Virus record (IMG/VR): IMGVR_UViG_3300012920_000189
Span: 1-28,484 of that record
DNA length: 28,484 bases
Reading direction: 5' to 3' (one strand)
Source of the DNA: a virus
Made by a program: the position numbers and the translations under genes. The notes under the pieces were generated by a model. That model was not told where the DNA came from. It was given only the letters and a program-made list of their open reading frames with translations, and did not search any database. Of this stretch, positions 2,635 through 26,500 are shown one piece after another; within the stretch, counting starts at the first letter, position 1, and the number at the start of each line of letters is the position of its first letter.

Positions 2635-2820
2635 ATGAGCAGGATAGAAGACGAAGTATGTAAGAAAATCCAAGGGAGAGCAGAAGTTGGTAAAGCGAAG
2701 TACGGCGTTACTATGGAGACTGCACCTTTGTCTAGGCTAGAATGGCTCATCCATGCTCAGGAAGAAGCCATGGACTTGGCTGTCTACCTACAGAAATTAA
2801 TCGAGGAGGAATCGGAATGA
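2635..2820 (+). CDS. MazG-like / all-alpha NTP-PPase-like mini-protein, 61 aa
   Basis: A short helical protein resembling the small phage proteins with the pattern GKxKYG...PLS..EWL.HA.EEAMDLAVYLQK. Visible parts are K20-A-K-Y-G24, W37-L-I-H40-A and the acidic helix E43-E44-A-M-D47, which in MazG-type nucleotide pyrophosphatases would help bind Mg2+. At 61 aa it holds only one such helix pair, so it would have to act as an oligomer or may have lost catalysis. I chose ATG 2635, four bases after the polymerase stop, over an in-frame GTG at 2599 inside the polymerase gene. It ends Glu-Glu-Glu-Ser-Glu because GAGGAGGAA is the SD of the next gene, and the two genes overlap by ATGA. Likely role: trimming unwanted dNTPs (inferred from family). 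Confidence 0.65.
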   Translation: MSRIEDEVCKKIQGRAEVGKAKYGVTMETAPLSRLEWLIHAQEEAMDLAVYLQKLIEEESE

Positions 2821-3812
2821 GCGATAGAGATTGGAGTGCCTACGCTAAATCTACCTATCAGTATGTGCTGGGCCATGAAAAAATGCTTCGTATCACGAAA
2901 ACTAGTCTCACCAGTGACTTCGATTTCTGCCCTAAACAGTATGAATACAAGCGTATTCATCGTTTACCAGAGCCATCGACAGACGCTATGACAAAGGGTA
3001 CAAATGTACACGACGCTATAGAGTTTTATTATGACAATGTCATGCCAATAGTAGGTGAACTACATACTCTTGTACAAAGAGACAAGATAAAAGAAGCACT
3101 TGAACTGGCTAAATCCATTTTGCCTGAGAAGGAATATCACTTAGGTGAACAATCGTCGATAGATACTAGAATACACTGGGACTTACAGCGATTAAAGCAT
3201 GTAGGAGTAGATGACTATTTACCGATTATCAATGAATCTGAAATACACGCTTATGTCGAGGAAGAGATTGAATTCAATGGCGAAGTGCACACTATACCGA
3301 TTCACTATGCAGGTAGTATTGACCGTGGTTTCAGTGAAGAAGACGGTGGAGTAGCCATCATGGAATTGAAAACAGGTAAGTGGGTACAGACTAAAAGAGA
3401 CGATGAATGGAAAGACTCAGATTTCAAAGTAAAGTCCATGAGAAGAGAAATGGCGTTTTACAAGAAGTTGCTAAAGTTAGCAGACCACCCTTTACAGAAT
3501 GTGACGCACTGGGGTTGGGTTTACCCATCAGGCACCGTAGAAGGATTAGATTCTCTTAACAAATATGGCTATGAGCAAAGAAGCATTAACAAAATATTTT
3601 ATGAAAAGATTACCAAGCGTATGGATACCACATATACTAAGCAAATTGACAAATTGAAAGTTGGTTTGATTACGGCTTATTTGACTGGTGACTTCCCTAC
3701 CAGTTCCAGTGCGGGTAAGTGCGCTTGGTGTAGTTTTAAAGAAATCTGCCCGGCATGGGAAGGAAGTGACAATCCACAAGAATATTTGGATAATTATCAG
3801 GAGGAAGAATGA
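2817..3812 (+). CDS. Cas4/RecB-like PD-(D/E)XK nuclease with Fe-S cluster motif
   Basis: A 331-aa exonuclease-type protein. The core motifs occur in family order: C38 in DFCPKQY, then H65 in TNVHDAIEF, D169 in GSIDRGF and E183-L-K185 in MELKTGKW, followed by a REMAFYKKLL helix. A C-terminal C302-x2-C305-x5-C311 pairs with C38 to give the four ligands expected of the [4Fe-4S] cluster in Cas4, AddB and Dna2 nucleases. The ATG at 2817 overlaps the previous stop (ATGA) behind a GAGGAGG SD; an earlier in-frame start at 2742 lies inside the MazG-like gene and is rejected. No Cas1, Cas2 or repeat array is nearby, so a role in viral DNA end processing or recombination-dependent replication is more likely than CRISPR adaptation. 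The protein ends in Gln-Glu-Glu-Glu, encoded by the next gene's SD. Confidence 0.88.
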   Translation: MSDRDWSAYAKSTYQYVLGHEKMLRITKTSLTSDFDFCPKQYEYKRIHRLPEPSTDAMTKGTNVHDAIEFYYDNVMPIVGELHTLVQRDKIKEALELAKSILPEKEYHLGEQSSIDTRIHWDLQRLKHVGVDDYLPIINESEIHAYVEEEIEFNGEVHTIPIHYAGSIDRGFSEEDGGVAIMELKTGKWVQTKRDDEWKDSDFKVKSMRREMAFYKKLLKLADHPLQNVTHWGWVYPSGTVEGLDSLNKYGYEQRSINKIFYEKITKRMDTTYTKQIDKLKVGLITAYLTGDFPTSSSAGKCAWCSFKEICPAWEGSDNPQEYLDNYQEEE

Positions 3813-4066
3813 TGGATAAAGGGATGGTAAGCCGTTTGATAGAAAAAATGATGACTATGGTTGTAGACAGAAATGTAGAAGTTAACTTTTCTCATTTGGG
3901 TAAAGGTAACGACTATAGTATCGCTATTCAGGCGTCGCTGTACGAGTTTGATGAGAATGTACAAGGACCGAAAGGGCCTATGTACATCACTTTGAACAAC
4001 TATCTTTTACAAGATACAGGCGAACTAATCAACACCATAGACAAAATCATCGAGAGTAGGAAGTGA
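3809..4066 (+). CDS. Hypothetical protein, 85 aa
   Basis: Not recognised. It starts ATG 3809 (or the next codon, ATG 3812), overlapping the nuclease stop as ATGATGG behind the SD AGGAGGAAGA. The N-terminal third is a Met-rich amphipathic helix (SRLIEKMMTMVV), followed by probable beta strands around VEVNFSHL and DYSIAIQASLYEF and a C-terminal helix (GELINTIDKIIESRK). There are no cysteines, no membrane segment and no catalytic motif. Its place between the Cas4-like nuclease and the primase suggests a small accessory factor of replication, by context only. Confidence 0.7.
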   Translation: MMDKGMVSRLIEKMMTMVVDRNVEVNFSHLGKGNDYSIAIQASLYEFDENVQGPKGPMYITLNNYLLQDTGELINTIDKIIESRK

Positions 4067-4070
4067 ACCC

Positions 4071-5174
4071 TTGAAAATAACATTTGACTTTCCAAGAGAA
4101 GTAATGGAACTTGGAAATGAGAATGGTAGGGGCTTTCGCAAAATCGTCAGAAGCAGTGGTGACCTAGAGAGATACTGGGCTGGTAAGAACGGCGTATCTA
4201 ACGCTTACATGACGGTCTACGGTTATCGTGCTACTAAGCAACCTCATAACAACAGGGTAGATTTACTGACTCCTATAGTGAGACACTTTGTTATGGACTT
4301 TGACCCTAAAGACTTTCGACAAAGGAGTAGACCTGATGTTGACCCTGAGAAAGCGATGGAACAGACTAAGACTTTGCATTATTATTTACTCAAAGAAAAT
4401 ATATCTCACGCTATATGGTATAGTGGAGGAGGATTTCATGTATGGGTCGGATTAGATAAGCCTTACATGCCGAGTAACGGTAATCATTTGTCTGCTATCA
4501 AAGATGCAGGTATGCAGGTTGTCAATGACTGGATAAGAAATATGAACCTATTTTGCTCTGACCCTGCTGTCCCTTTCGATACCAGCGGGATGATTAGAAT
4601 ACCTAACTCGTATAATTCCAAAAGAGGCTCATGGTCGATACCTTTAACGACTAACGATTTAGAAAGAGGACTAGACCACATTATGGTCAAGGCACTTAAT
4701 CCTAAAAACGGAGTGATTAGTTATGGCGAAAAAGGACTTGATTTAGTTATTAAAGAATCGCACAAAAAAGCCAATGTTTTCAATCCCAAATCAAAACCAA
4801 TTGATTTACCAACAGTATCAATGGATGGTGTCATCATATTACCATGCTTAAACTCAGCAGCATGTCGACAAGGGAGTAACCCTAGTCATGATGCTAGGGT
4901 ACAGTTAGTCAAGTATCTGGCTAAACGACTGAGAAACTTCATACCAGTAGAAAGAGTAAGTAAAGAGAAAGTTGAGAAAGACACGGAAACTATCATAGAT
5001 TACATTAGGACATTAGAATGGGCAGACTTTGACGAAAGGACAACCAGATACCAAGTTAGTACAATTGTCGGAACAGAGTATCCTCAGACTTGCTCTATGC
5101 TCTACAAGAAGGGTATGTGTTTAGGTAAATGTAGATATTGGGACAAAACTGGTGCCATTGAGGAGGAAGAGTGA
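4071..5174 (+). CDS. Archaeal/eukaryotic-type primase: PriS catalytic domain fused to PriL-like Fe-S domain
   Basis: Makes primers for the adjacent polymerase. The N-terminal catalytic part shows the AEP motifs: D76-F-D78 in VMDFDPKDF, S118-GGGFH123 in YSGGGFHVWVGL, and a third Asp D170 followed by MIRIPNS (R176, P178). Residues from about 255 onward resemble the Fe-S C-terminal domain of the large primase subunit PriL: LPCLNSAAC (C259, C265), NPSHDARVQLVKYL, then C341 in QTCSMLYKKGMC with C350 and C354. The length (367 aa) is about that of PriS alone, so both parts are compact and the usual PriS zinc site was not seen. The start TTG 4071 follows AGGAAGTGA and gives a natural beta-strand start (MKITFDF). 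The protein ends in four Glu codons that form the SD of the next gene. Catalytic family firm; PriL part moderately sure. Confidence 0.88.
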   Translation: MKITFDFPREVMELGNENGRGFRKIVRSSGDLERYWAGKNGVSNAYMTVYGYRATKQPHNNRVDLLTPIVRHFVMDFDPKDFRQRSRPDVDPEKAMEQTKTLHYYLLKENISHAIWYSGGGFHVWVGLDKPYMPSNGNHLSAIKDAGMQVVNDWIRNMNLFCSDPAVPFDTSGMIRIPNSYNSKRGSWSIPLTTNDLERGLDHIMVKALNPKNGVISYGEKGLDLVIKESHKKANVFNPKSKPIDLPTVSMDGVIILPCLNSAACRQGSNPSHDARVQLVKYLAKRLRNFIPVERVSKEKVEKDTETIIDYIRTLEWADFDERTTRYQVSTIVGTEYPQTCSMLYKKGMCLGKCRYWDKTGAIEEEE

Positions 5175-8293: not shown

Positions 8294-8436
8294 TGTCAAT
8301 GATAGTCTGCGAAGTATGTGAAAGAGATAATTGGTCAGGAATTAGATGCTCTAAACATAGAGTGTGTACTTCCTGTATAGATTCCATATTGGAAAAATAT
8401 TTTGAGAGGGAAAATAATGAACGAAAACGAGAGTAA
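8293..8436 (+). CDS. RING-like half zinc finger mini-protein, 47 aa
   Basis: ATG 8293 follows GAGGTGG and overlaps the exonuclease stop (TAATG). The ligands C6-x2-C9-x9-C19-x2-H22-x2-C25-x2-C28 match the first six ligands of the RING cross-brace consensus, but the last CxxC pair is absent and a charged Lys/Arg/Glu helix follows. It could bind one zinc as a treble clef. The longer in-frame ORF beginning at 8209 runs through the exonuclease and is rejected. The 3' end overlaps the thermosome start by 20 nt, with GAGAGGG inside it acting as that gene's SD. Confidence 0.7.
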   Translation: MSMIVCEVCERDNWSGIRCSKHRVCTSCIDSILEKYFERENNERKRE

Positions 8437-9913
8437 CACAAGCGCAGTGGTGCATAATATAAGAGCAGCAAAAAGAGCCGTAATGACGGTCAAGACAACA
8501 CTTGGCCCGATGGGTATGGACAAAATGATGGTAGATGCCGGTGGTAATGTAATAGTTACTAACGACGGTGCTACTATTCTACAAGAGTTAGACATCAGTC
8601 ACCCTGCGGCTAAAATGGTGGTCGAAGCGGCTAACACACAAGAAAATATCTGCTACGACGGAACGACAAGTACAGTAGTCTTGGCAGGAGAGTTACTGGG
8701 TAACAGTGAACTTCTGTTTAACAAGGGGCTTCATGCCAATATCATTTGTCGTGGTTACAGGAAAGCCTCCAAGTGGGCAACTGACCACATACAATCACTG
8801 GCTTTCAAAGGGTCTAAGCATCTCAGTAATGTAGCAAAGACTTCTATTACAGGCAAAGCGTTAGAATCTAGCGTAGAGCATGTTAGTGGATTATGTGTAG
8901 AGGCGGTCAAGAAAGCAGCAGGTGACTTTGAAAGAATTAGAGTTCTATGTCAGCCGGGCGGTAGCCTAGATGACTCGTCTTGCTTTAGCGGTGTAGTTTT
9001 ACACAAAGAGTTTATGTTACCTGCTATGCCTACCTTACCAAATGGTCAGGCTTTACTAATCAACACTGGCTTGAGTGATATCAAAAGCGATGATAATGTT
9101 CAACTGAATCTTGGCTCTGCTGCTGAATATCAGCAATACAAGCGGCAATCAGGTAGAGAGCAATGGGTAGACAAAGCCAAGGCAATAACTAATCTCCTGC
9201 CAAAGGGAGGCGTAGTATTCGTTAGAGACACTGTCCATGAAGTTGTGGCGGCTACATTAGCCAAGCATAACATATCCATGGTGCACAGAATACCTGAAAG
9301 TAACATGACGGCACTAGCCAAGTTGCTCAACACCACTATTGCCCATACCACAGAAGACCTACAAGAGGCGGTAAAATGCGACGCAGAGTGCAAGACTATT
9401 GGTGATATGAAGTATGTCGTAGTCAAGGGTGAAGGAGAAGTCACTACGCTTATTCTAAGAGGTGCTACTAAGCAAACTCTTGACGAGACTGAGCGTGGCT
9501 TTGAAGATGCTCTCGGTGTAGTCTGCTTGGCTTACAACAGCGATTCGGTTGTCTACGGCGGAGGCTCTGCTTATCTTAATGCAGCGTTGCACTTACGCTC
9601 AAGGGCTGCGGAAGCAGGTGGTAGAGAGCAGATGGCTATCGACGCATTTGCTGACGCATTAGAGTCAATACCGGCTACCATTGCTGAGAATGCAGGTCAT
9701 GACCCACTTGACACTATACTGACACTAAGAAATGAGCACAAGGCGGGTAACACTGACAGCGGCCCAGATATAGAAAACGGCGGTGCTTGTTCGATGAAAG
9801 AGCAAGATGTCTTCGAGCCGCTTGATTTAGTCAAACAGGCTATTCAATCGGCCAGTGAAGTTACAATTAGTATACTACGAATCGACGACATCATAGGAAA
9901 GCGTGGTGAGTAA
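8417..9913 (+). CDS. ths: Group II chaperonin (thermosome) subunit
   Basis: An ATP-driven protein-folding chamber subunit, 498 aa. The equatorial ATP site is clear: TLGPMGMDKMMVDAGG, VTNDGATILQELDISHPAAK and C-Y-D81-GTTSTVVLAGELL, where Tyr replaces the usual Gly before the key Asp. The apical region runs from about VLHKEFMLPAMP to MTALAKLLNTTI. The C-terminal equatorial part has RGATKQTLDETERGFEDAL, VVYGGGSAYLNAALHLRSRA, FADALESIPATIAENAGHDP and SASEVTISILRIDDII. It is shorter than the usual 540-550 aa, mainly because the Gly-Met-rich tail is missing. ATG 8417 is preferred (SD GAGAGGG); a TTG at 8402 has no SD. Viral thermosome genes are known from marine archaeal viruses. With one gene here, a homo-oligomer or mixing with host subunits are both possible. 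Confidence 0.97.
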   Translation: MNENESNTSAVVHNIRAAKRAVMTVKTTLGPMGMDKMMVDAGGNVIVTNDGATILQELDISHPAAKMVVEAANTQENICYDGTTSTVVLAGELLGNSELLFNKGLHANIICRGYRKASKWATDHIQSLAFKGSKHLSNVAKTSITGKALESSVEHVSGLCVEAVKKAAGDFERIRVLCQPGGSLDDSSCFSGVVLHKEFMLPAMPTLPNGQALLINTGLSDIKSDDNVQLNLGSAAEYQQYKRQSGREQWVDKAKAITNLLPKGGVVFVRDTVHEVVAATLAKHNISMVHRIPESNMTALAKLLNTTIAHTTEDLQEAVKCDAECKTIGDMKYVVVKGEGEVTTLILRGATKQTLDETERGFEDALGVVCLAYNSDSVVYGGGSAYLNAALHLRSRAAEAGGREQMAIDAFADALESIPATIAENAGHDPLDTILTLRNEHKAGNTDSGPDIENGGACSMKEQDVFEPLDLVKQAIQSASEVTISILRIDDIIGKRGE

Positions 9914-9914
9914 C

Positions 9915-10016
9915 TTGAGTGATAATCAACTTTCTGTAGAAGAAGAAATACACGCTCAAATGAAAATCTCAGAGATGATACTTGAAGAAAATCCAGACTT
10001 ATTAGAAGAGGAATGA
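9915..10016 (+). CDS. Acidic mini-ORF, 33 aa
   Basis: A TTG two bases after the thermosome stop, preceded by GTGGTGAG, opens a 33-codon ORF. The product is acidic and helical (SVEEEIHAQMKISEMILEEN) and ends Leu-Leu-Glu-Glu-Glu. Its last codons, GAAGAGGAA, are the SD of the following ATG at 10019, the same junction style seen for firm genes. No family is recognised. TTG starts are used elsewhere in this operon (primase), which supports it. Confidence 0.5.
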   Translation: MSDNQLSVEEEIHAQMKISEMILEENPDLLEEE

Positions 10017-10018
10017 TT

Positions 10019-10114
10019 ATGAGACTTTGCTCAAAAAGAGGCTGTTTTAATCTAGCCCATAACGGATTTAGACACTGCTTAGCGTGCCTCCGTGGAAAAG
10101 AAGAGGAAGAGTGA
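10019..10114 (+). CDS. Zinc-knuckle mini-protein, 31 aa
   Basis: ATG 10019 lies 5 nt after an AGAGGAATG ribosome binding site. The 31-aa basic product has C4-x4-C9 and C20-x2-C23 with His14 and His19 between, enough for one zinc knuckle. It ends with four Glu codons that form an SD-like run, although no gene starts right after it. It is the last gene of the long + operon. Function unknown. Confidence 0.55.
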   Translation: MRLCSKRGCFNLAHNGFRHCLACLRGKEEEE

Positions 10115-10139
10115 CCACTCAAATGCACTCGCTTTCTGA

Positions 10140-10186
10140 TGAGTATTACTCAATTAGTTTAAGTATAGTATGGTATACCAAAACTT
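10140..10186 (+). promoter_or_regulatory. TATA promoter for a leaderless gene, with two dyads
   Basis: The only real intergenic gap (10115-10186). TTTAAGTA at 10158-10165, extended by TA, is a good archaeal TATA box and lies at -29 to -22 relative to ATG 10187. Transcription would therefore begin at or beside the start codon. No SD is present before that ATG, unlike almost every other gene here. A 13-nt dyad, TGAGTA-T-TACTCA, lies at 10140-10152 just upstream of the TATA box where the BRE would be. A perfect 10-bp palindrome, TGGTATACCA, lies at 10171-10180 between the TATA box and the start. Both are candidate operators. Confidence 0.6.
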
Positions 10187-10462
10187 ATGGCGGATGAAAA
10201 GAAACCAGAAGAGAGCGAGGGAATACAGATTCCTGATATTGAACAAGCAGCAGTAGTAAAATTAAACGGTATGGATTGGCATATAATCGAACATATATTT
10301 GTTGACTATGTAGGGCAGAATTTCGGTGAATATGCAAAAACTGAAACTGATATAGAAGAACTAAGAAGTAGTGCTATCGGACTTTACAACAGATTCTGTG
10401 CAGCCGAGCATGTCTTTCAAGAATTGAGAGAAGCATTAGTAATAGTGAATATAGACGATTAA
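10187..10462 (+). CDS. Hypothetical protein, 91 aa, with its own promoter
   Basis: Not recognised. An acidic protein with a Lys/Glu-rich flexible N-terminus (about 15 residues), then probable helices across DWHIIEHIFVDYVGQNFGEYA, DIEELRSSAIGLYNRFCAAEH and VFQELREALVI. It has one cysteine and no membrane segment or DNA-binding motif that I can see. It differs from its neighbours in having its own TATA-type promoter and no SD, so it is probably expressed separately from the replication operon. Its TAA stop at 10460-10462 abuts the stop of the convergent - strand operon. A small regulator or host-takeover protein is possible by context only. Confidence 0.8.
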   Translation: MADEKKPEESEGIQIPDIEQAAVVKLNGMDWHIIEHIFVDYVGQNFGEYAKTETDIEELRSSAIGLYNRFCAAEHVFQELREALVIVNIDD

Positions 10463-10720
10463 CTACCTTCCTAACTTCTCAGCCATTTGTCTGAGATAAC
10501 GGGACAGTCTTCCGCCAGCCCTTCTCGATACAGGCTCTGCCTTGCGCTTACGGACACCCTTGAATCCGAGTTGTCCATGAAAGCGTATGTAGTCGCAGAA
10601 AGAACACTGATGTAAGACTACAGGTTCGCCCGATATATAACAGCCCGATATCGACAACGGTAGAGAGATGCGATTACAGTTTTCGCATCTTTGCTTGAGC
10701 ATGTCGATTAGTCTACCCAT
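10463..10720 (-). CDS. Zinc-ribbon protein with basic tail, 85 aa
   Basis: Last gene of the - strand structural operon. C12-x2-C15 and C39-x2-C42, with C27 between, form a zinc ribbon. The remaining 40 residues are strongly basic (KGVRKRKAEPVSRRAGGRLSR). The pattern suits nucleic-acid binding. The ATG at 10718-10720 overlaps the TGA of the 392-aa gene (TGATG) and has GGTGAG upstream; a TTG one codon earlier is less likely. It is the only non-structural-looking gene in this operon, and could be a late regulator or a DNA-packaging accessory. Confidence 0.72.
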   Translation of the reverse strand: MGRLIDMLKQRCENCNRISLPLSISGCYISGEPVVLHQCSFCDYIRFHGQLGFKGVRKRKAEPVSRRAGGRLSRYLRQMAEKLGR

Positions 10721-11898
10721 CAACTCACCGTATGCAAGTCTAATTTATGCCAATCAGCACCGTCATAGACAAACTTAGCATACTTGTTTATTCCGACATC
10801 GACATTTATTTTTGTGGTAGTGCTATGTCCACCAACAGTAGAGTCAAAGTGTAAAGTGTGACTTCCAGCCTTGTGATATACCTCTACAACATGACCTCTT
10901 GGAAAATCACCTGTAGGGTTTATTTTTCTAGCAGCGTCGGTGGTAACTATCCATATATTACCTTGGTCGAAATTGAATGTGACATCTCCACTAGTTGTTA
11001 CAATTTCTAATCTGTTTGGTCCCAAAACATGCGTATCTGTGGAGGGTGTAGCCTGTAAGTTTCTAGGTGACGCAGCATATACTAATCCGTGTCGATTACC
11101 TGCCACATCAGCAGTGTGACTCTGCCATATGGCTCCGAATGGACTGCCAGCAAAATCTCCACCTTCGTTACCAGCAAAGAATGCATCTAAGTCAGCAGCG
11201 GAGTTGATTGAGTTGCTGGGATAAGCGGTATTCCCGTTTTCAGCCTTGGTCATAGGTGTCAAAAAATTGACAGTGTTATCTAAAAATGTCCTGCGGTCAA
11301 AGATGATTGGGTCGTTACCTAAAACACCACTAGTGCTGATTGTGTATCTTAGAACTGCTATGACTGTGCTTTGATGATTGGAGTCTGTATTAGCGGTTAT
11401 ACTAGGGTCAGATAAGAATCGGCTAGGTATCAAAGGGGTTCCTGCTGACGCTACAACAGGTGTGCCTATTTCATACATCACATTGTCTTTCGGTGAACCG
11501 TTACCAACTAGATATACCACTACAAATACCTCTGAGTTTGAAGACGGGTTACTTGGTAAGTCTCCAGAAAAGTTAGAATCCGACTTTACCGTGAACGCTA
11601 CGGTGCCATTCGGACCGCCCGCAAACTTATACAGAATACCATCTATTTTGCAGTAACCCCCGTTGACTGTAATCAAGCCTGCGTTACCTGCTGTGATGTA
11701 ACCGGGTGTACCTGATACAACGCTGTTTCTGAGCGAATGACCTTTGGCACCATCGCTTAATCTCAAAATACCGTTACCGTGTAACCCTTCGTATAGATTA
11801 GTAAGACTAGGACTAGTAAGCCCGTCTCCGTCTCTAAGTCCTTGTGAATTAGAACCGTAGCCCGTTGCGCTTGTGTGTCCTGCTTTTGGATTAGTCAT
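10720..11898 (-). CDS. Beta-rich virion structural protein, 392 aa
   Basis: A probable tail or baseplate component. It is rich in Gly, Ser, Thr and Asn with many short beta strands and no catalytic motif. The N-terminal part (ITAGNAGLITVNGGYCKIDG) resembles the opening region of phage baseplate/fibre proteins that build a trimeric beta stem. The C-terminal part has HVVEVYHKAGSHTLHFDS, a YxKAG[ST] motif also found in the giant protein. The ATG at 11896-11898 overlaps the upstream stop (ATGA) behind GAGGTGGGA. It is placed downstream of the hub-like and 118-aa genes, which suits a distal tail structure. Exact role not determined. Confidence 0.65.
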   Translation of the reverse strand: MTNPKAGHTSATGYGSNSQGLRDGDGLTSPSLTNLYEGLHGNGILRLSDGAKGHSLRNSVVSGTPGYITAGNAGLITVNGGYCKIDGILYKFAGGPNGTVAFTVKSDSNFSGDLPSNPSSNSEVFVVVYLVGNGSPKDNVMYEIGTPVVASAGTPLIPSRFLSDPSITANTDSNHQSTVIAVLRYTISTSGVLGNDPIIFDRRTFLDNTVNFLTPMTKAENGNTAYPSNSINSAADLDAFFAGNEGGDFAGSPFGAIWQSHTADVAGNRHGLVYAASPRNLQATPSTDTHVLGPNRLEIVTTSGDVTFNFDQGNIWIVTTDAARKINPTGDFPRGHVVEVYHKAGSHTLHFDSTVGGHSTTTKINVDVGINKYAKFVYDGADWHKLDLHTVS

Positions 11899-12251
11899 TG
11901 TCCCACCTCTATGATTGCGGTAAATTTAATTTCATTATTGCTTGTTTTTTCTATCGAGTTATAGGTGTATCGGCACAAGTCTGTAGTGTCAGTAGCATCG
12001 GCGGGATTCTTGTATCTGATAACAACTTCCCTTAGCGGTAGCGTGAAACTAACATCTAATGACAGTTTTGCTTCCACCGATAATGTATTGTCGTCTATTA
12101 TCTTAACATCAGGTTTGACAACGACTGCTGGTCTACCTATCCCGCCGTCTTGTTGAGTAGCAACAGTGCCGTCAAATCCAAACACCACTTCATTGATTCT
12201 CGCTCTTAATGTATCTATCAAAAATCTTGTTCCCTCGTCTAATATTGGCAT
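11895..12251 (-). CDS. Small virion-associated protein, 118 aa
   Basis: Not recognised by family. It begins with a helix (GTRFLIDTLRARINEVVFG), then mostly beta strands, including PAVVVKPDVKIIDDNTLSVEAKL, REVVIRYKNP and a final EIKFTAIIEVGQ. This looks like a compact beta-sandwich such as small baseplate or tail-completion proteins have. The start ATG 12249-12251 lies 1 nt after the upstream TGA with GGAGAGG before it, and its stop overlaps the 392-aa gene start. Tight coupling on both sides suggests that the three proteins are made in matched amounts for one structure. Confidence 0.6.
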   Translation of the reverse strand: MPILDEGTRFLIDTLRARINEVVFGFDGTVATQQDGGIGRPAVVVKPDVKIIDDNTLSVEAKLSLDVSFTLPLREVVIRYKNPADATDTTDLCRYTYNSIEKTSNNEIKFTAIIEVGQ

Positions 12252-13907: not shown

Positions 13908-14504
13908 TCAGTCAACCCCTATTTCTCCTCTTTCACCAAAGTGACTTTGCCCACCTGTCCAACCATCAGGTAATCTTACCAAAAATTCAGGAGGTATATA
14001 TTGGGTAATGAAACCCTCAGCAGGCTCATCCTTACCTCCAAAAGGATATCCTCTGTTTCTAAACATACCCTCGACTTGTTCTATTGGCATCCTTATACCT
14101 AGTCTCCCTCTTCCCATTTCAGCATCACTGTATATATTCCAGCCGCCTCCGCTTGCACCAGCAGGAAATACGAAATTACCAGATTTACCTTCTATGTCAA
14201 ATGGCTTATAACGGTCACCGCCAAATTTACCTGTATTCATAAATTGCATATCTTCCCATTCAGTTGCATTCTTACTAGCAGGAACAGGTTTCAAACCTTC
14301 TCGTATTAATTTCTCATACGGTTGTCTATCTTCTTGGGGTATACTTTGCCCTAACTCTGTTCCTTCATACCATGATTCTAAAGGATGCAATCTCCTCATG
14401 GTAACAGGCCCGTAAGGACTCGGTAAGTCAGGATGAAACTCACCAAGCGTAGTCTGACGCTTCAATATCATCCAAGCCTCATCCATTGGTGTCATACGCC
14501 TCAC
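13908..14504 (-). CDS. Hypothetical structural-operon protein, 198 aa
   Basis: Not recognised. The N-terminal helix (MDEAWMILKRQTTLGEF) is followed by Pro/Gly-rich, charged segments such as PYGPVTMRRLHPLESWYEG, a Gly-rich turn (FPAGASGGGWNIYSDAEMGRG) and a C-terminal strand region (EGFITQYIPPEFLVRLPDGW). The start is ambiguous: GTG 14502-14504 overlaps the giant gene's stop (GTGA), whereas ATG 14493-14495, three codons later, has GTGAGG at a better distance. Its position between the giant protein and the putative hub suggests an adaptor or a chaperone for the giant protein, by context only. Confidence 0.65.
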   Translation of the reverse strand: MRRMTPMDEAWMILKRQTTLGEFHPDLPSPYGPVTMRRLHPLESWYEGTELGQSIPQEDRQPYEKLIREGLKPVPASKNATEWEDMQFMNTGKFGGDRYKPFDIEGKSGNFVFPAGASGGGWNIYSDAEMGRGRLGIRMPIEQVEGMFRNRGYPFGGKDEPAEGFITQYIPPEFLVRLPDGWTGGQSHFGERGEIGVD

Positions 14505-17500
14505 TCCCCACTATGGTCTCCTGTATTATAAGATGCATCCCCTTTGCTACCCTTTGGATGTAGCGTCTGGCTGTGTCTTGGCTGAACACTGTAATCACCC
14601 TCATCATCATCTATAGAACGACGACTTGCGTCGGCTCGGAAGTGTTCAAGAGTGTTTTCTGACATGACCATTCTGGCCACCGGGTTAGTAATATCTGACT
14701 TATCATAGCCTGTCACATCGACACCGGGTATCTTCGGCCCTTGGCTGTCTGGAACAGTGATGCTACTAGTCGGGTCTACAGTGTATACAGGTGCGTAAGG
14801 TGGGCTACTTGGTGTACCTGTTCTAGCACCCGGTACATCACTTGTAAACATACCATACTTGCCACCAGCAGTTGCTCTGTAGAAGTTTGAGTTTTCTTGA
14901 GGACTGCGACTTTTCAGTGCTACATAAGGTCTAAACATCTGACTGTGTTTGAAATCAAGTCCAAACGCTGGTCTATACAAGAATTGTATATTACTATCAG
15001 AATGGTTTAAATTTTCCTTTAGCGGATGCTGATGGTCACTATCTTGGTAAGGGTTAGATGACGATGTAACTCCATCTTTACCCCAGCCTGTGACATCTAA
15101 GTTACCGGCGTGTTTACTCCAATCTATTACATAAGTACCGCCAAGCGGCCACATAGCATGTGCATCTGAGTGTTTGACAACACCAGTAACAGGGGCGGCA
15201 CTCCAGTTAAGTCCAGTCATGTCCAAGTCCTTAAGAGTTCTACTTCCGAAGTCATATGCTCCTCTGATATTGGTTCTTTGACCAACCTCTCTGTCTGTGT
15301 GCAGACTGTGGGCTTCTGTTGACATAACGATGTATTCTCTACTTACACCGTCGTTTAGTTCTGCGATAGTGTCTACATCTAATCCCAACCTAACATCATC
15401 TCTTGACACAGGCTCAGCACCTCTAGTATCTGCGTTGACAGTTTCGATGGCCTCACCGACATGTGCGCTAGGCTTGAGTAGACCGTCATCAGAATCTAAG
15501 TCCACCCTATCGCTGATACCTCTTTCAATTTCACCAGACTGTAATGTCTCGTTGCTCGGCCTAACCAAACCTTGTCCGTAGACAGGTTCGGCTGTGTTAC
15601 TTGACAATACCAAACCAGTAGCATCATGGTTTTCGCTAACAGCCATAAGTAAACTTTCGTTGAATACTGTAGGCCATCTACAACCTCTACCATCTCCCCT
15701 GTCACCAACTCTAAGCATGCTCGCAGGATTGAACCAATCGACTACTCCCATATTAGTAGCATCGTTGTTCGCTGTGTTGGCATACCCACTCTGTCTATCA
15801 CTGCCGTCACCTCCGAATAAGTTGGTAGCAGAAGGTCTGTTATTTACATTAGTATCTTGATAAGCATCCTCTGGGTCCCACGATGGCCTTAGTCCGAATC
15901 CTCTTACAGGGAAACGCCTGACATCCTCGCCACGAGTATTACCCCACCAGTCAACCATGTAATGCCTGTGCGCTGTGGCTAACTCGGCTATATCTTGTCC
16001 AACTTCATCGTTAGGGAATAGCCTAGTAACGGTAGATGCATTTCTTGCAGTTCTAACTGGGCAACCAAACGGCCCTGTCATTCTTCTACCGTCACTATAT
16101 CTGACTTGGCGACCAATTTGGTCTTGGCCGAGTAAACTAGAAACTTGAGTTAGTCTTTCAAGTATACCTACATTGATAGACGCTAAGGCTTTGTTTTGTC
16201 CACTACCTAGACCAAAATATTGCCAGTTACCTGCATCTTGTTGTATAAAAGGACCATTGTAATAACCTAACATTGCGTTACTACTAGATACCTCTAGCCA
16301 ACCACGAATGTATGGAGACCATCTTGGTCTGTTGTACAGTTGCCTAACTGCCATTCTATAACCAAAGCACCTATTTCTGTCGCTAGGTAAAGACAGCGTC
16401 GCAACTCCAGTTGAATCTTGGTATGTTTCGCAATCCATGCCAAATGTGTCGCTACCCCAACCCATAATGGAATGACCATACGAATCTAATCGGCTAACAC
16501 CACCTCCTCCACGAGAGCCGCCCGGCCAGAACCCAAAGAAGTTGTATTTGTCTGAGCCTACAGTCCCGCCTTGATGATTTAGAGTTCCAGCACCGTCAGT
16601 AAGTGCATCAATTTGTGCGGCGGTTTTAACTAACCCATCATGTGACAGCGCAGTTCCAGAGTCGTTATCGTGGTCATGAGGGGGTACTACTGTCTTCATA
16701 CCAAATGCAAAAGGCCCTTTACTGGCTACATAATTGAAATCGTGGTAATGTATTGTTTCAAAGTGTTCTGGAACATGGTTGTATGGCTTTTGGTTAACGG
16801 GTGTATCAGCAGTTCCAGCCTTGGTGTATATATTTCTTGAAGCATCGTCACTATACCAAGTAAACGGTCTGCCTAAATTAGGGTGCCACATACACAGGAA
16901 AGCGTCTGCTGAATGCAACGAATTAGTATCTCTGCTTCCGTTAGCAAATTGTGGCAGGTTTCTAGTCATCGCACTTGTATCAGAATTAAGATAAAGCGTT
17001 GACGCACTGCCATTATCGTATGGTCTGGTCAACCTAAGCACTGTATTTGTTGCTATGTTAGACCAGAAAGAAGCGTCTGCTGTAACATTATCAAAACCAG
17101 TTGTGCCAGCGTGTGTTCCAGTCCCTCCAAATGTTCCAAAAATATTATTATAGGTAGCAGTATATCTCACTCCGTCTTTAGTATATTCTAACCTTTCACC
17201 GTAATAAGGAAACGCTGGAAATAAATCAGAACTGTCTTTAACGGTTATAAAGCCTCCTGTGCTCGTTCCGCCACTGCTGTCAAATCTATTTACTATACAA
17301 GTAGGAGACAGGCTTCTTATTCTCTTGTGAACTTCGTATATGTCTAAAAACGATGTTGGGTAACCTGCAAGTGTTATCTGAGCGCCGACAGCGCCATAGT
17401 TTGCTCTACACAATTCATAGTAGTTATCTGGTTTATACCACTCAAGATGTCTAAATCTGTTAGCACCTGTTCCCAAAGCGCCATCTTTGTGAAGAGTGCT

Positions 17501-20500
17501 CCACCAAGGTATGGTTAAGGTTCTGCCCGGTGTTGAACTTACAAACATACCCGGTCTGTAAGGTAGACTTCTGCGAGTAAAAGCAGGGCTAATAGACTCT
17601 TGAACACCGAGTGGGTTGTAAAGAGCAAGAGGCGGTAAACTAGCAAATTGGCTACCGGGGTCGGGGTCAATATCTAATATTACTTCGTTTAGTATAACTT
17701 CACAACCTCTAACATCAGCCATCATAGCCTCGGCTAAGATAAGTGCATAAGCACCTCTAGTGTTGACATTCCTTTCTATGGCAATCACTGTGTTAACTTG
17801 CTGACCTGTTAGTTCAGTTACTTTTGTACCAGCCTCGCTAGGTGCTTTTATAGAGTCACTGTGATTTTGATGAAAACCTTGTAACTGTTGTTTAAACACA
17901 TTCGGCTGAATAATAATCTGGTAGGAACCTACTTCCAACGGGTCTGGAAAGTGATTGTTCATAGTGTATGTGGCCGCTGCTTCGAGAACAAGTGTATGCC
18001 CTCCTGCTGCGTTTATGTTACCTGCATCAGTACCTACACTGGCTGCTATGCCGTATCCTTCATATTTTAATTTGGTCTCGGTGAGTAGTGTAAACGCACC
18101 GCCATGTATATCACTAGGTCCATAAGCAGTACTTGCCGCAGAAAACCAAACCGTCGGGTCTCTACCAAAACCAGATGGAACAACAGTATCACTATCAAAT
18201 TCGAATCTACTCGTTTCGAGTGTTCCAATAAGTGAATCTTCAAAGAGAGATTGATTGGAACTTTTACATGCTTGATGTAAATCATACATTCTTTGATACG
18301 CCGGATGTGCATAATGACCGGGCATCAAAGCCATAGTAGGAGTAACATAATGATGTCCCATTCTTGGTATGGGCATGGGTGTCATAGTTGCAGCATTAAT
18401 GTATTGACTTGGAACTGAGTTTGCAGCAAAAGCACTTGTGCTAGTGGGCAAAGCGTTATACATTCCAAACCAATCTATTTTTTTCATATCTGGGCTCGCA
18501 CCGCTATATTCACTATGGTCACGCAAACGCTTAGAAGCAAACATTCTGGTTGTTCCAGCGGGCATATAATACGAAGGGACCATCAGTAAATTATCGCTTG
18601 ATTCGTTGTTGTTGTCTATAATAAACTGCTCAAAATCTGGACTGACTACAACACCGGTAAACTTGTTAGTTCCTAATCCTGTATAAGACGCTATGACCCC
18701 TTTGTCGGTGACAGGATTGTATACTCTCAAGAAATATCTACCTCCACTAAGTTGGGAAGTATCCGCCCAAATGTCGGAGTTAGGTGCAGATGCTGTAAGT
18801 ATCTCACTCGTTGATGATTCATAGCCACCAAAAGTCAACTCTTGTAAATCGTAACGATGAGTCATCGTTGTTCCCATTTTAGTTACATGAAAATATAACG
18901 ACCTGTCATGCGGTTCAAAAGCAGACTTGAGTGGGTTACTATCAGTGTGTTCAGTCCACTTACCTAGTTCAGAATCTGGGAAATTAGAGTCCTGCGACAA
19001 ATGTTCCCACCCGTTATTTTCCCATGTTGGCCAAACTCTTGGACTAATATATTCGTGCTCAAACATCTCTCTAATCTCAGTAATGTTTTGTGCGGGGTGC
19101 TGTAAACCACCCGAACCGATGGTCTCGTTTTGATACGCTTGTATTCTATCGAAACCTGACCTAATAACTATGTTGCCGGGAATTTCATCTGGTTCTGGTA
19201 ACCTTATCCTTAAGTTGGGACTGACACCAGCACCTGCCAGAGCAGGGGCCAAACCCTCTATTTCCCTGTCACTGATGTGTCTGAAATCCATAATTACTGT
19301 GCCAAACGGTGACCCACCTTCGATTCTATGCTCTTGTCCAGTATCGTCTACTACATTAATGCTTGAGAACTGTTTGTGTTCATTGGGTATCATTAAAGCG
19401 TTTCTCACTTCTATGGGATGTTGTTCTGCTAGTTGTGGATGTCCCAACTCTTGTGCTTGGATGATAGGAAACATAGCAGCGTTAGTAGTCTCAAAACTAA
19501 ATCTAACATTGCCGAGTATTTTCTCTCCTACTGTCTTATACACATTTGAAGAATCTTTACGCTTTGTCCAAGGTATCATACCTAGTCCACGAGCGTTCAG
19601 TGCTGGCATAGTCAAACTACCGCCATCCATTCGCTTCCAAACTACATGTTCTGGTAAAAAGTTTCTGGCAGCGCTTCTTTTGTTGTAAAAGCCAAACAGA
19701 CCAGTGTTTCCTTGGTTAGCACTTGTTGACAAGTAGTGTTTCTCGCCGGTAAGACCTATGCATTCTACTGCATATTGAGATTGATTTTCGTGAATACTGT
19801 TACTAACAACTGTGCTTTCATCCCAGAACAAATCACCAGTAGGATATCTACAAGCGTTGGCTCTAACCATATCACCACTTTGTATAGTTCGATGCCACTG
19901 AACATCTTCTGGTAGCGTATTACCGTTAGGGTAATCGTCAGCAGTAGTTGGTCTGAATTGATTTTTGTGTATCTGAACCTCTACATGAGGGCCAGCAGTA
20001 GCGGGTCCAACATATCTATCTTTATTATGTATAATACTTGTAGAAAATGTAACTGTTCCGGCCTTAGTTATACTAGATTCTTGACTGGCTAACAACATAT
20101 CACCAGTGCAAGTTACTCCGTCGATGTCAGCCTTCGCTATCAGAGGCAACTCACTTTCGTGACTTACTACAACCAGATGCCTACTTGACAAACCGTTGAC
20201 ACATGAATCACTTGCGAAATTTACTAAAGGATTTTCCGAAAATTGTAACACAGGTGCAGAACTTGCCAAACATGTTTCGGCAGCCCCATAAGGATTGAAT
20301 CCTAAAAACGGATGCCATGCGCCCAGACCAGCAGCATAAGTATTGCTACCCAAATCTAAAGAATTCAGATAGGAATATCTTTCACCATGCCAACCTATTG
20401 CTCCTACTGGTCTAGTTCTATCTACGGCATCTACAAATCCACTGTAGTGCACTTGGCACATATGGTCTCTGGATGTGTTACCTGAGTCATTATTGTGCCT

Positions 20501-23500
20501 ATGTGTCCCTGCCTTAGTCCAAATATAAACTTCGTAAACAGTTCTGGGACTAAAACTAAACGCACTACTATCATGAGGGTTGATTAAATTAGTAGAACCT
20601 CCGTCAGGACTTTTACCTAATGTGAGAGTAAGGTTAGGTGCAGAATAAGATGTGGATACATATGGTGCGTAATGAGCATTAGTACCGTCACTGACCCTTA
20701 CCCACCCATATTCTGGTAAAGTTGTCAGGCTACCGCCAACCACTAAACTGGCAGCAGTACCACTATTTTCTGCGGTATAACTTAATATATTGGTTTTTAC
20801 CCAACCATATCTGTCTTGCTTATGGGCGTTTTGCATTGATGGCATGAATGTTCCACCCATGGCTTTCAACGGGTCTTTTCCGGGGAATGTGTTTATCGAA
20901 GCACTAATGATTGTCGCCAACTCTTCTGCATTTTGCACTCTAGTTGCGTCAATAATAACCACATTGTCGTGCACCGCTTGGTTAGTTGGTGTGCCTCCGT
21001 AGTAACCTAAGTAAGCCTTTGCCAACAAACCACATGGCCTGAAAGCAGAAGTGTTCTGTGCAGCATTGCTACCAGTGTTCAATCTACCAGTTGTTGGGTG
21101 TGCAGGGTTTTTACTTACATGGTTGTCTAAGAAATGCCCGCCCGGATGGTAACCGCCATCCATATGCCAAACAACAGCAGACTTTCTAGTCTGTAAGAAA
21201 TTAGAGCCGCCTATGGTATTAGCAGCACCGCCTGCAATTGCTACAGGAACATGATTAAACGGATGATAATGTTTGGGAAGGTTGGCTGTCGTAGCAACGC
21301 TGCCCTCATAGTAAAATGCTTTATCAAAGGTTTGGTTGTAGTTTTTAGTAGCACTAGCGTCTTCTGACGGAAATCCTTTGGTAGGTTGCCAATTCATAAC
21401 ATAGTTAAATCCTTTAAGATTGTTCTTTTGGAAAAAGGTAGTCATAGGCAAGTGGGCTTTCGTCCATACTGGGGTTACAGTACTACTTCTGTTGAAACCG
21501 CTGTGTTCAGTTAAATCACCGTTGGTCAATTGATTTGGTAAGAATGTATCCTTGGTAGCATCACTATTGAAGTGAATTGGAACAGCACTGTAACCATTAC
21601 CAGTTGTAACTATACGAGAGCCCTGCGGTTCATGGGCTGCTGTGTTGTGCGGGAAAGCCTGACCGGGACCGAATATCATGTATGTAGTGTGTTGAGTGTT
21701 ACTTCCCGTTGGACTATATCTAGCGTGCGGGTGAGCGAATCTCAACACTATTGGACTAGGAATATTAACACTTACACTGTTAGTACCGTCAGTATAATCT
21801 ACACCTGTGACTTTACTGTTAGCGTTTTTAGCCATGTCAAAAGTAAGTATAGCGTCTTGGTTGAAGAAAGGAGGATGGTTCTGACCTTTGTGTTGGTCAA
21901 GATAAGGTGTACCGGGGAACATAGCCAGCATAGCATTGGTGTCTAACAATGCGTAAGAGCCAGCCACCTCTCCTATGTTCTGCATACCAGCGCTACCTGT
22001 CGGACCGGAGGAGTATGGGTGTGTGTAGAATTCGCTGTAGTCGTTTTGTGTTCCGTCATTGATATCTACAACAGCGCCGCTAAATCCACCGCCGAAGTAT
22101 AACGGCACCCAATGGTCGGGGCTGTCTCGACCTCCACGGAAAAATAGGAAAGGACTAGATTGTTTACTACCTGCTCTTCTTATACCATCTGTTTTGATGG
22201 CATCGTATGTGTTGGCGTAACCCTTGAACACTATGTCATTGGCAGATGGTGTGGACCAGTTAGAAGAACTAGCATTGCCTACATAGATGACTCTGGTAAC
22301 ACTATTTGCACCGGGCTCACTTCTTACTGTAGCATATTTGTCAGAACTGTATCTAATTAAGAAAGGTTGACCCCAACTATTAGCGTTGTTAGATGCAAGT
22401 TTACCGAACAAGGCCCATGTCTGGCCGCCTGCGACATCTATGTTTGTAGTTCCGCTTGCAGCACTTATCAGTGCAGAAGGCGAATCAACCCTAGGTATAA
22501 TTCTGTCACCTGCTACATCAATGAAGTTTTCACCTCGTAGATTTCTTTGCCATGTAGTAGTGTCGACAGTGTTATTCTGACTGTCCACCAAGACAGGAGT
22601 GGCTGTGTTGGCATTAGCGCCTCTATACTTAGTGGTAATCTGTAGTAAGGTCTCAGGTATGTAACCGACATCTAATCGAGTACCACTATCTATTTCGCCT
22701 GTGCTAAGACCTCCTGTGTGTTTGCTAGTTACCGTAGCATCTGTTGAAGCACCGTCTAACAATCCAAAGTCTTTAGTTCGCTTTGCCTCGAACAATTTAC
22801 TCAAAGATGTTTTTTTGTCTGCTCTTGATTTTATTCTAATAGCAGTAGGACTAACGCCCCACTCTCCTAATGTCTTACCGTCAGGAGCAAACATGTGCGT
22901 GCAATCAAAACTCGTTGCGCCTATGTCATCCAATCCAGCATCTGGCATATTGATAGCATGTTCTACAGCAGCAGCAATTACCTCATCCGTCAACAGACAA
23001 GTGAAATTTATCCTTGGACTCAATATCAGCCCCGGTCCACCATCTACGATTTCTGTAGTGTTAGTGACCCCGTAAAAGAAGTGCTTGTTGGCTGTGCCAC
23101 CTGACTTACCGAAGTGGGAACGACTGGTGTAGAATGTAGTCATACCTTGGTCGCCGCTAGTTCCTGCATCATCACTTAGTTGTAACATACCTGATTCTGG
23201 GAAACCAAGATAACCTAGTATATCTGGGTGAGAAAAAGAGCCTCCGTTGTCATACGGGCTAGTCAAAACAACTTCTAATGTTGTTCCGTTAAGAGTCGCA
23301 GTTACATGTATACCTACATGTGGGCTTGGATAATTGTTCCACAAATTACCTTTGTAAGACTGCAAAGTGCCCCCAGTCAATTCGCCACAAACTTCTCCTT
23401 GGCCTACTACATGCTTTCCTATAGTAAAGCCACCTTGCGCTACATCTCTATCGTCAAAATGAATGATAACTTCTTCATCCAATGTAGGCGGTAAGTATGT

Positions 23501-26500
23501 GTTATCATTAGCAAATGATTGTCCAAACTGTCTGTAGACCATCCGTATGGTATGGTTGTTGCCTCGGTGGTCAACAAATCTAAATCCGTAAAGTGGAGTA
23601 TTACCTATGTTTTGTTTTTTCATGTCATCTTTAGGTATATAGCCACCAGTGTTATTTACGGTGAACTCAGACATGGACCTTCCTTCGACAGGAGAGGAGC
23701 CATATTTCGACCTGAATACCGCTTGAGTGCCATCATTATCGAAGCCCCACCTGCTCACATCAGGTGCCCATCCGGGTATACCTGCCTGTGTCAATCCACC
23801 AAAGTTTATTCTAGCCTTTGCTCGACTACCAACTCTCAATCCTTCGACTAGGGTTGAGGCAGGGCTTTTAGTTTCAAAAGATTCATTGAGCAATGTGTTT
23901 GCGCTTCTACCACTCACCATTTCTGTGTTAGCAGTTTCTAACGCAGTTCCGCTGTCAGCATTATCTGGTCCTAGATTTAAATTGTTAAAAAACGGGTCTG
24001 AGGGATTTTCCGGCGGTAGATGCTCCTTCAATGTTGTAATAGGAGCAAACGGTCTACCAAACCTATTGATAGGCATAGGTGCAGGGTGCATATTTTCTCC
24101 GGTTATCTCATCAGGCTGACACCAATAGTTTCTGAAACGACCACCGTGGCCTATCAAGAACTGAGGCTTGTATGGACTTTGTGCTTTACTACTATCTAAC
24201 CAAGCGCAAAAATTACGACCAGCAGCACCGGGTATAGTAGAGTGAATGACGATAGAAAATCCTTTTTTGTTATCAGAATCTAATACAACCCTACCTAAAT
24301 GAGCCCTAACATAACCCATGTGGCTACCTCTGTCATGACTAGAAAATGCTTTTTCTACATCCCAAAACGGTGCTGGGTCGTGCGTAGATGCTGTTGCAGC
24401 AAAATCAGCGTGTAAGTGTGTGGCTGCTGGGTCAATGTTAGTACTGTATGCGTTAGATTTAGGTCCAGCACTTGTCAAATCAAAACGAGCGCTTTCTCCC
24501 AGATATTGGTCATTTGGTCTACGGGCGTGTGTTTTGCCATTCTTAGCACCGGCTTGATTGATGAGCCTAACTACTTCTATAGCAGCAGATTCGATATTAG
24601 TCACTCCTTCTTTTAACGACACCTCGCCTAAATCCACAGTCAGCCTTCTTACGAAATCCATCTGAGTCCAATGGTCTAAATTGTTTAAGCGAGAATCGGT
24701 TAATGTGAGTTGCTTTGACCTTATACCTTTCATAGCCAAAAATACAGGTATGACTCTAGTGCCGTCAGGAGTATCGAAAAATGTAGAAGACTCTCTAGTA
24801 CCACTGTCTATGACTTGGTGTTCTGCGATAGCGTTATCAGTTGAAGCCACAGCCGGGTTTGTCCTGCTACTGTATCCTTGTTTAAGTAAACCGCTTATGC
24901 CGCCTACATTATGTTCTGATATAGCGCCAGTTGCGCTTTCGTTTAAATTCGAATTGTGTGCGTAACTCGACTCTATAAAATCAGATTTGGTAGTAGTGTT
25001 CATTCTCTTGTTCTGACTAGGGAAACCAGCAGCAACATCTAATTGTGTGCCAGAATCTGTGACTGTGTTTTTTACGACTCCTGTTTTGTTGGTATCTTCT
25101 TCACTAATTCTAGCAGCGGCGGGACTTGACTGAACTTGCATGTGTAAGTCTTGGAACGCAATAAATTCTCTATCACCTTTAACATCGTATAATAATATTC
25201 TAACGAAATCGTCTGTGCACTGATACGGGTCCAAGTAAGCGACGACAGGTGCAGTAGTAGTCGCAGCGAACAACTCAGCGTAATTTAACTCAACTGTTTT
25301 GTTGATATGTTGAACTAAATTCTTAGCCGTTTCTATACAACTGTTTCCAATCAAGAAGTTTTCTATTGGCACACTGTCTCTTGGATTAGCGCTTGCACTG
25401 GCCATACCACCGTTGAAACCTGTCCATACCTCGCCTTCATTTAGTGTCCCTCGACTTTTACAAAACAAGCCCTCTACTGCATAAGGATTAGTGTAGTGCA
25501 TGTTCATCCATACTGTATCGCCCTGTCTTAATCCACCTACACAATAAGGATGAGACCAAGCCCTATTGAGGAATGTTTCTTTGACCTTTGGCCAAGTGCT
25601 AGCAGAGGTAGCATATAGGTCCTCTACAAATATCTCATCACCTACTGCTGGAGTAAAACCGCTATCGGGACTTACTATAGTAAGCACATTGCCTACTCTG
25701 TTGTCGTAAAATCCACGATTGATTGCACCACTAGCATTTCTAAATACGACTCTGAATTTGTAATCAGAATCTGGAGAACTAATTGGAAACAAACTAGCGT
25801 CATCTAGTGTAAGAGAAGTGGCAGGACTTCCGGTTACTGCGATAACTTTTGCTCTCGGTCTTTTACTGACAATCTTGGGTAAGTGAGGGTTGGTTGTCGG
25901 ACCTGCTCTAAGTTCGATGGCGCTAACATATTGTCTTAGCCCATAATCTACATTGCCACCTTGCGTCATCACACTAGACCTATCAAAGTAGAATGAACGA
26001 CGATTTTCGTACCCTGCACTAATCAGACTTGGGTTGTCAGCAATACTGTTGTAATTCATGTCTTGATAGCCGGGTGCTGGTGTGAGATGTGCACCTACAG
26101 TTAAGTCACGGAAAAAATTTTCACTGGCTATGAAGTCATCGCCATGGGCACCTGCAACTTCTAAGTAATGGTCGCTGATGTTTCTACCATCATAGATAAC
26201 CCATTCGCCATTGGGTAAGAATGCCCTACGATATCTGGCTCCACCAGCAATACCTGCCACATCTACGGCTGGGGCTGTCGGTATCGGGAATATATTAGCA
26301 TCCTCGACATATATTTTGTGAGCGCTAGTAGTATACGGTCTGGTAACTTTCGTGCCACTCCTGTGACTGCCAGACTGTATTGTGTAAGCAAACGGTCCAA
26401 ATATTTCAGGGTCTTGAGGTGAGACACTGTCAACCCTTCTACCAACCGGACTAGGGTTCCATGAGTGTGCAGTATGTGTAGCGTCGATGTGTAGTTTCAT

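Follow-up and report, generated by a model that had tools for sequence, protein, structure and literature searches.

A conserved promoter-like module with exchanged cargo genes at one variable spot of magrovirus-like viruses

We analyzed a stretch of viral DNA of 28,484 nucleotides (IMG/VR record IMGVR_UViG_3300012920_000189, positions 1 to 28,484; hereafter the window) and found that a short promoter-like module before a small gene recurs once per record, at one and the same spot, in related viral contigs, while the body of the protein encoded behind it is exchanged. Judged from its sequence, the promoter is constant and the gene exchanged at this spot across viruses whose TCP1 genes are only about 73% identical. 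We interpret the arrangement as a moron-like cargo cassette at a fixed variable spot, in which a constant leaderless promoter is combined with swappable cargo, and assign this reading a probability of roughly 0.7.

The window is a magrovirus-like contig and thus resembles tailed viruses of marine archaea. It encodes a DNA polymerase of family B and a group II chaperonin (TCP1), and its genes form two convergent arms with opposite reading directions, the combination described for magroviruses (the MGII virus clade with a thermosome). Its gene content and arm layout fit the descriptions of the Magrovirales, in which replication and morphogenesis genes form two oppositely read clusters (PMC10768690), and of the MGII virus clade, all 18 genomes of which have a thermosome according to PMC5332604. 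The plus arm ends with a 91-aa gene whose stop codon abuts that of the first convergent gene, and the promoter element lies at the meeting point of the arms, between TCP1 and the small zinc-type gene. Pfam searches of the minus arm of the window gave matches without significance and did not identify its gene content; about half of the window (14501-28477, minus strand) is one open frame of 4,658 codons. The features considered here are as follows.

8402..9913, plus strand: group II chaperonin (thermosome/TCP1; Pfam Cpn60_TCP1, E 3.5e-130), left border of the variable spot
10013..10114, plus strand: 33-codon cysteine-rich microprotein (MIMRLCSKRGCF...), an optional neighbor of the cassette, with a homologous ORF in several other inserts
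10140..10152, plus strand (-47 to -35 from the A of the ATG): 13-nt dyad TGAGTATTACTCA, of which distant relatives keep the right half only
10148..10152, plus strand: ACTCA element, separated from the downstream TTTAA by 5 nt (in the variant group, from the corresponding box by 8 nt)
10158..10165, plus strand (-29 to -22): TATA-like box TTTAAGTA, followed at the same distance by ATG in 14 of 16 copies and by ACG in the other two
10171..10180, plus strand (-16 to -7): perfect 10-bp palindrome TGGTATACCA, a possible operator, kept in 11 of 12 main copies
10187..10222, plus strand: start segment (MADEKKPEESEG), partly common to main-group cargo proteins with differing bodies
10187..10462, plus strand: acidic cargo gene, 91 aa, pI 4.4, class I body, with two relatives found, both at the same spot
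10463..10723, minus strand: convergent zinc-type protein gene, 86 aa, right border of the spot

The first-pass annotation had described a TATA-like box at -29 to -22, an ATG at 10187 that lacks an SD, a 13-nt dyad and a 10-bp palindrome, and all of these are present where it placed them. It had also placed the dyad over the expected BRE; the dyad exists, but at -47 to -35 it touches that position (10152-10157, AATTAG) with its end alone, and it therefore does not lie over the BRE. The six bases before the box, -6 to -1, are AATTAG in the window, AATGCA in L018 and AGCACC in L057, representing three lineages. According to the main text of PMC11065993, a strong BRE has G at -6 and A at -3; G at -6 is found in none of the three lineages and A at -3 in the third only, and we see no clear candidate for a strong BRE beside the TATA-like box. 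The window furthermore contains an inverted repeat, CTCGCTTTCT / AGAGAGCGAG (one G-U pair), at 10128-10137 and 10210-10219, bracketing promoter and start; its left arm was not found in the L033/L057 group. The microprotein, 31-33 residues in length, has a glutamate-rich end that encodes an SD-like GAGGAAG, and similar ORFs occur in the inserts of several relatives; the homologous ORF is missing from L033, L057 and L058.

The gap before the 91-aa gene is not plainly noncoding, since a frame from GTG at 10111 to TGA at 10197 crosses both dyads, and we considered whether the stretch might be an SD-led 28-codon ORF coupled to the 91-aa gene. The SD-like GAGGAAG before the GTG, the overlap with the next start and an open frame in L003, L008, L009 and L018 are all consistent with coding. 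Nevertheless, codon changes between the window and L018 comprise 1 synonymous and 13 nonsynonymous ones, differences are spread across all three codon positions, the GTG is GTA in L009 and L018, and L033 and L057 have other sequence in place of the frame's upstream part. Comparison of the window with four relatives gave no synonymous bias; we rejected the coding frame and regard this reading as scarcely credible. A second candidate, an RNA element that masks or exposes the start codon in read-through transcripts, was suggested by folding z-scores of -2.6 in the window and -2.7 in L057. It is very improbable, since z-scores were only -1.7 in L018 and -0.7 in L074, the folds differ, and palindromic stretches would presumably lower folding energy with no role in RNA; an RNA switch was rejected because folding is weak and unconserved.

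Copies of the module were located with sequence patterns in a collection of 2.9 million contigs. Besides the window, a degenerate promoter pattern matched 11 viral contigs, and a pattern for the diverged form matched 4, giving with the window 12 main and 4 variant copies, each present once and at the same spot; the combined degenerate pattern matched exactly those 15 contigs. Because members of the set supplied the patterns, the matches show absence at other places and are not an independent rediscovery. In 14 of the 16 stretches, window included, the copy was seen behind the chaperonin end; the stretches of L117 and L122 end too early to show the chaperonin, which their contigs show in L018 and L005.

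We set the identity of 43 promoter bases, from ACTCA to ATGG, against that of fourfold sites of TCP1 in seven loci (21 pairs). The promoter was the more similar of the two in 21/21 pairs. Between the window and L009 it was identical at 43/43 positions, compared with 64% at TCP1 fourfold sites (193 sites); corresponding values were 86% and 51% for L018, 79% and 36% for L033, and 79% and 41% for L057. The identity between the window and L009 lies in colinear sequence and speaks for constraint; in the other pairs, horizontal movement may have added to the conservation.

The distance from TTTAA to the start is equal in 14 of the 16 copies, even though the variant group has few common bases in between. 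This distance was noted in L016 and L074 before any pattern was written, and the later pattern has it built in. The other two copies, L021 and L132, which belong to one lineage, have ACG in place of the ATG, followed by an SD-led ATG. A fixed distance, together with ACG copies that have an SD-led ATG, is the trace expected of a promoter whose transcript starts at the ATG. The suggestion that the 91-aa gene has a TATA promoter of its own gains support from relatives that keep the putative promoter at the same TATA-to-ATG distance, and the pattern fits leaderless transcription. Upstream of the box, ACTCA or CCTCA is found 5 nt before TTTAA throughout the main group; the variant copies have a similar (A/G)CTC(A/T), placed 8 nt ahead of their corresponding box. 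We conclude from this comparison that the right half of the dyad (ACTCA) and the TATACC stretch are probably part of the promoter.

The module also proved to be single-copy. A search of 16 records with up to 2 mismatches gave one match each in 5, none in 11 and two in 0. A promoter matrix built from three lineages scored 52-55 at the spot in four carrier records and at most 13.7 elsewhere in them, and the next scores, 15.8 and 16.3 in two carrier records, came from the same spot on the other strand; the top score in G010, which lacks the promoter, was 14.1. Since the matrix gave no second site in the five records, a virus-wide promoter motif was rejected. In cellular genomes, a 26-base pattern had no exact match in the genome collection, and a chaperonin search toward Poseidoniales genomes returned one Altiarchaeales match only. 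The motif GTATACCAAAA occurs twice in the first 5 kb of G001; it is absent outside the spot in G002, G010, G017 and the window, so we take it for a chance match or an independent element.

To examine the spot itself, we took the loci of the best 80 of 166 chaperonin relatives from the viral collection and determined how far the convergent zinc-type gene lies from the end of the chaperonin gene. The chaperonin tree contained 81 rows, i.e., 79 fetched loci, the window and L119; L069 was left out because its chaperonin piece was too short. Six rows with a different gene arrangement were excluded from the counts, and L132 was not placed. Among the 75 rows with the window's arrangement (window included), 32 are empty, with no more than 12 nt between the genes, and 43 have inserts, of which 12 carry the window's promoter, 3 the variant promoter and 28 other content. 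The inserts are 60-1,140 nt long (42 of 43 measured) and diverse, encoding a GNAT-like protein (under the Pfam cut-off), cysteine-rich microproteins, oppositely read genes or tRNA-Arg(TCT). Empty sisters, L034 and L055, stand next to the filled L033 and L057/L058; L033 and L034 are 97% alike in the left flank and 91% in the right flank, and the insert is the difference between them. On the chaperonin tree the promoter label changes 7 times, at least 4 of these forced by well-supported branches, against a shuffled mean of 11.3; the label is therefore still clustered. In a scan of eight loci, a tRNA-Arg(TCT) gene was found in the variable spot of six (L016, L021, L074, L035, L041 and L042), directly 5' of the variant promoter in L016, L021 and L074.

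An alternative is that the conserved block serves chiefly for recombination or insertion and resembles a promoter only incidentally. In its favor, cassettes are gained and lost at this very place, L033 and L057 share the block from the stop codon of the chaperonin gene as far as codon 11 or so, and in the window group the promoter is flanked by the inverted repeat (10128-10137 and 10210-10219). However, the block is absent from the 32/75 empty rows and from the 28/75 rows with other inserts, which indicates that insertion does not need it. Furthermore, the distance from TATA to start is fixed while the bases between vary, and in L021 the ATG is ACG with an SD-led start downstream. We consider this explanation unlikely.

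Exchange of the protein body is the other component of the cassette reading. The 12 main copies are followed by three kinds of acidic protein, which resemble one another at the start and differ in the body, and the pI ranged from 4.05 to 4.90 in all 12 cargo rows examined, some of which are near-copies. The window and L003 are 94% identical over the last 600 nt of TCP1, 96% in the promoter and 90% in the right flank; identity falls to 76% over the first 33 coding nt after the ATG, and the proteins are only weakly alike, at the start only (BLASTP E 0.30). L003 and L057, with TCP1 at 73%, have homologous bodies (34% over 127 columns, BLASTP E 5e-16). L033 and L057, again with TCP1 at 73%, are identical in the promoter (100%) and nearly so in the first 33 nt (97%), and their proteins are alike over the first 22 residues only (BLASTP). 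The proteins of the window and L033 show no likeness past the start (BLASTP). Near relatives thus have unlike bodies and distant ones related bodies, and the distant L033 and L057 have promoter and start in common but unlike bodies, which together argue for exchange of the body. Inspection by eye shows a likeness between about 20 bases at the right end of the L033 insert and the 3' terminus of the L055/L057-clade zinc gene, suggesting this clade as a source. The contigs are metagenome assemblies; an assembly chimera could account for the way promoter and body are joined in L033, but not easily for the shared promoter. In the identity tables, promoter and start-segment values for L074, L016 and L021 were not used because they were one base out of register, and right-flank and body values near 0 for several distant pairs were not used because the free-end alignment had slid; bodies were compared by BLASTP.

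In the variant copies, L074 encodes a class II protein with another start, and L016 and L021 encode two further proteins that lack the start segment and were not joined to the classes. A first protein search with the 91-aa protein as sole query found no relatives. Relatives of the class I and class II proteins were found in 2 and 9 loci, respectively, all of them on contigs with the promoter or its variant. No accepted family or fold was obtained for the cargo proteins tested, the best matches in PHROGs and PADLOC having E values of 0.004 to 0.01. The predicted structure of the 91-aa protein was poor (pLDDT 65) and that of the class II protein mainly helical (pLDDT 74); fold searches of PDB and BFVD, run with models other than that of the 91-aa protein, gave no match at E <=0.001.

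Otherwise unlike small proteins of these viruses share an N-terminal tag, M..(P/A)(F/M)(D/N)xAWx(L/I)LK, which is possibly a targeting tag. It was observed at 13908-14504 (minus strand) in the window, at 2743-4698 (minus strand) in L136 and in convergent inserts of L007 and L024; five tag sites are clustered in G001. At 4341 and 4723 of L136 (minus strand), AGTATACCAAAAC followed by CGCTAA lies 5' of two neighboring tagged genes in G001, and this combination resembles the cassette stretch after the TATA box.

We next consider the palindromes, which by size are not rare in the window: perfect 10-bp palindromes number 16 and 6+1+6 dyads 18. Among its 64-nt stretches, 3.1% have a 10-bp palindrome, 3.1% a 6+1+6 dyad and 0.25% both, and both kinds were present in 57 of 20,000 base shuffles of the promoter stretch. 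By itself, and given the 28 kb looked over, the palindrome pair is only modestly unusual, and comparison with relatives was therefore needed. Conservation in the aligned copies is decisive: it holds for the TATA box, the start distance, the upstream ACTCA and TGGTATACCA, and not for the left arm of the dyad.

The proposal that a repressor uses the two palindromes as operators to switch the gene off is one we find possible but doubtful. Of the 12 main copies, 11 have TGGTATACCA intact and L018 has it with one change, the conservation expected of an operator; on the other hand, no covariation was seen in TGGTATACCA, and both palindromes are absent from the 4 variant copies. As for the 13-nt dyad, five of the 12 main copies carry it without a mismatch, namely the window, L008 and L003-L005 (in the last three, one pair is changed on both sides and still pairs); two, L009 and L010, have a single mismatch, and the left arm is missing from the remaining five (L018, L033, L057, L058 and L119). 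The compensated pair favors an operator, although it is a single event. BRE-spanning inverted repeats have been proposed as repressor sites in early genes of archaeal viruses (main text of PMC11065993), which lends the idea some precedent, but no regulator was recognized beside the gene. We found no evidence for the further suggestions that the gene is a switch gene or is controlled by viral zinc proteins. Conservation of the dyads in relatives had been named as the test of the proposal, and the 13-nt dyad fails it beyond close relatives; from the alignments we conclude that this dyad is a feature of one clade, while an operator at TGGTATACCA is possible. The first-pass annotation thus recognized a real and unusual promoter-like stretch and read the upstream dyad too strongly.

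Several known systems resemble the cassette. Morons of tailed phages are extra genes with their own promoter, inserted between genes that are adjacent in relatives, where the site is empty. The cassette likewise is an extra gene, absent at the same site in close relatives (32/75 rows empty; L034, L055); a conserved promoter-like module stands before it. It differs in that a simple scan made for bacteria found no terminator-like site at 9000-12000 and in that the promoter is retained while cargo bodies change. In T4 internal-protein loci, a constant promoter and N-terminal segment precede an exchanged body. The cassette has a similar constant leader and variable body, but nothing here shows that its cargo is packaged.

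Early anti-defence genes of archaeal viruses have conserved regulatory sequences (Bhoobalan-Chitty et al. 2024, main text of PMC11065993). As in the cassette, small genes with poorly conserved, mutually unrelated coding parts follow a common TATA-bearing sequence, and we found such a conserved sequence before unlike small genes across genomes; some members have BRE-spanning inverted repeats that are likely repressor sites. In that regulon, as the same text describes it, several genes of one virus share the sequence and its BRE is of the strong kind, whereas the cassette has one copy per record, is common across genomes at one spot and lacks a clear BRE. The viruses differ as well: that text concerns viruses such as rudi-, lipothrix-, bicauda- and fuselloviruses and contains no caudoviri-, euryarchae- or poseidon- words, whereas the cassette belongs to magrovirus-like tailed viruses. 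PeSL cassettes of T4-type phages and the TATA and inverted-repeat motifs of halovirus HGTV-1, as cited in passages of PMC3950731 and PMC4503421, are similar in that a promoter and an inverted repeat are thought to drive expression and gene shuffling. Those elements stand before many genes per genome, whereas the cassette is single-copy, and no stem-loop terminator was found with it.

In the cassette reading, the constant module would consist of ACTCA, the TATA box, TGGTATACCA or a relative of it and a start codon at fixed distance, and in the main group also of a short acidic start segment. Behind it would come a single small acidic protein that has its body exchanged through recombination, with the constant left sequence and the conserved neighbor genes on both sides as probable anchors for homologous recombination. 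The mRNA most likely starts at or beside the ATG, in which case the gene would be made from its own promoter and not by read-through of the chaperonin arm. Read-through RNA offers no SD at 10187 and leaderless RNA needs none, so expression of the gene probably follows a schedule of its own. Most likely, the cargo is an accessory protein for host takeover or anti-defence that is made separately from its arm. This functional guess is made by analogy, in that a small, acidic, exchanged and dispensable gene behind a constant promoter resembles the early anti-defence genes described in the main text of PMC11065993.

We found no description of such a promoter in open-licence literature: the word "promoter" is absent from the main text of PMC10160649, PMC12999244 and PMC5332604, and the whole text of PMC10768690 does not treat promoters. 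A constant single-copy promoter with an exchanged gene marks an accessory gene to test in each genome, and the module provides a first promoter model for these viruses, namely a TTTAA box with the start 29 nt later and no SD. It would also give a clear example, from nature, of gene swapping anchored by a promoter in an archaeal virus. More tentatively, leaderless promoter and start segment together may form a dedicated docking module where the two gene arms meet, through which a magrovirus-like population swaps anti-defence proteins of unrelated bodies. If this is true, the module would serve as bait for counter-defence genes directed against the unknown immune systems of uncultured Poseidoniales.
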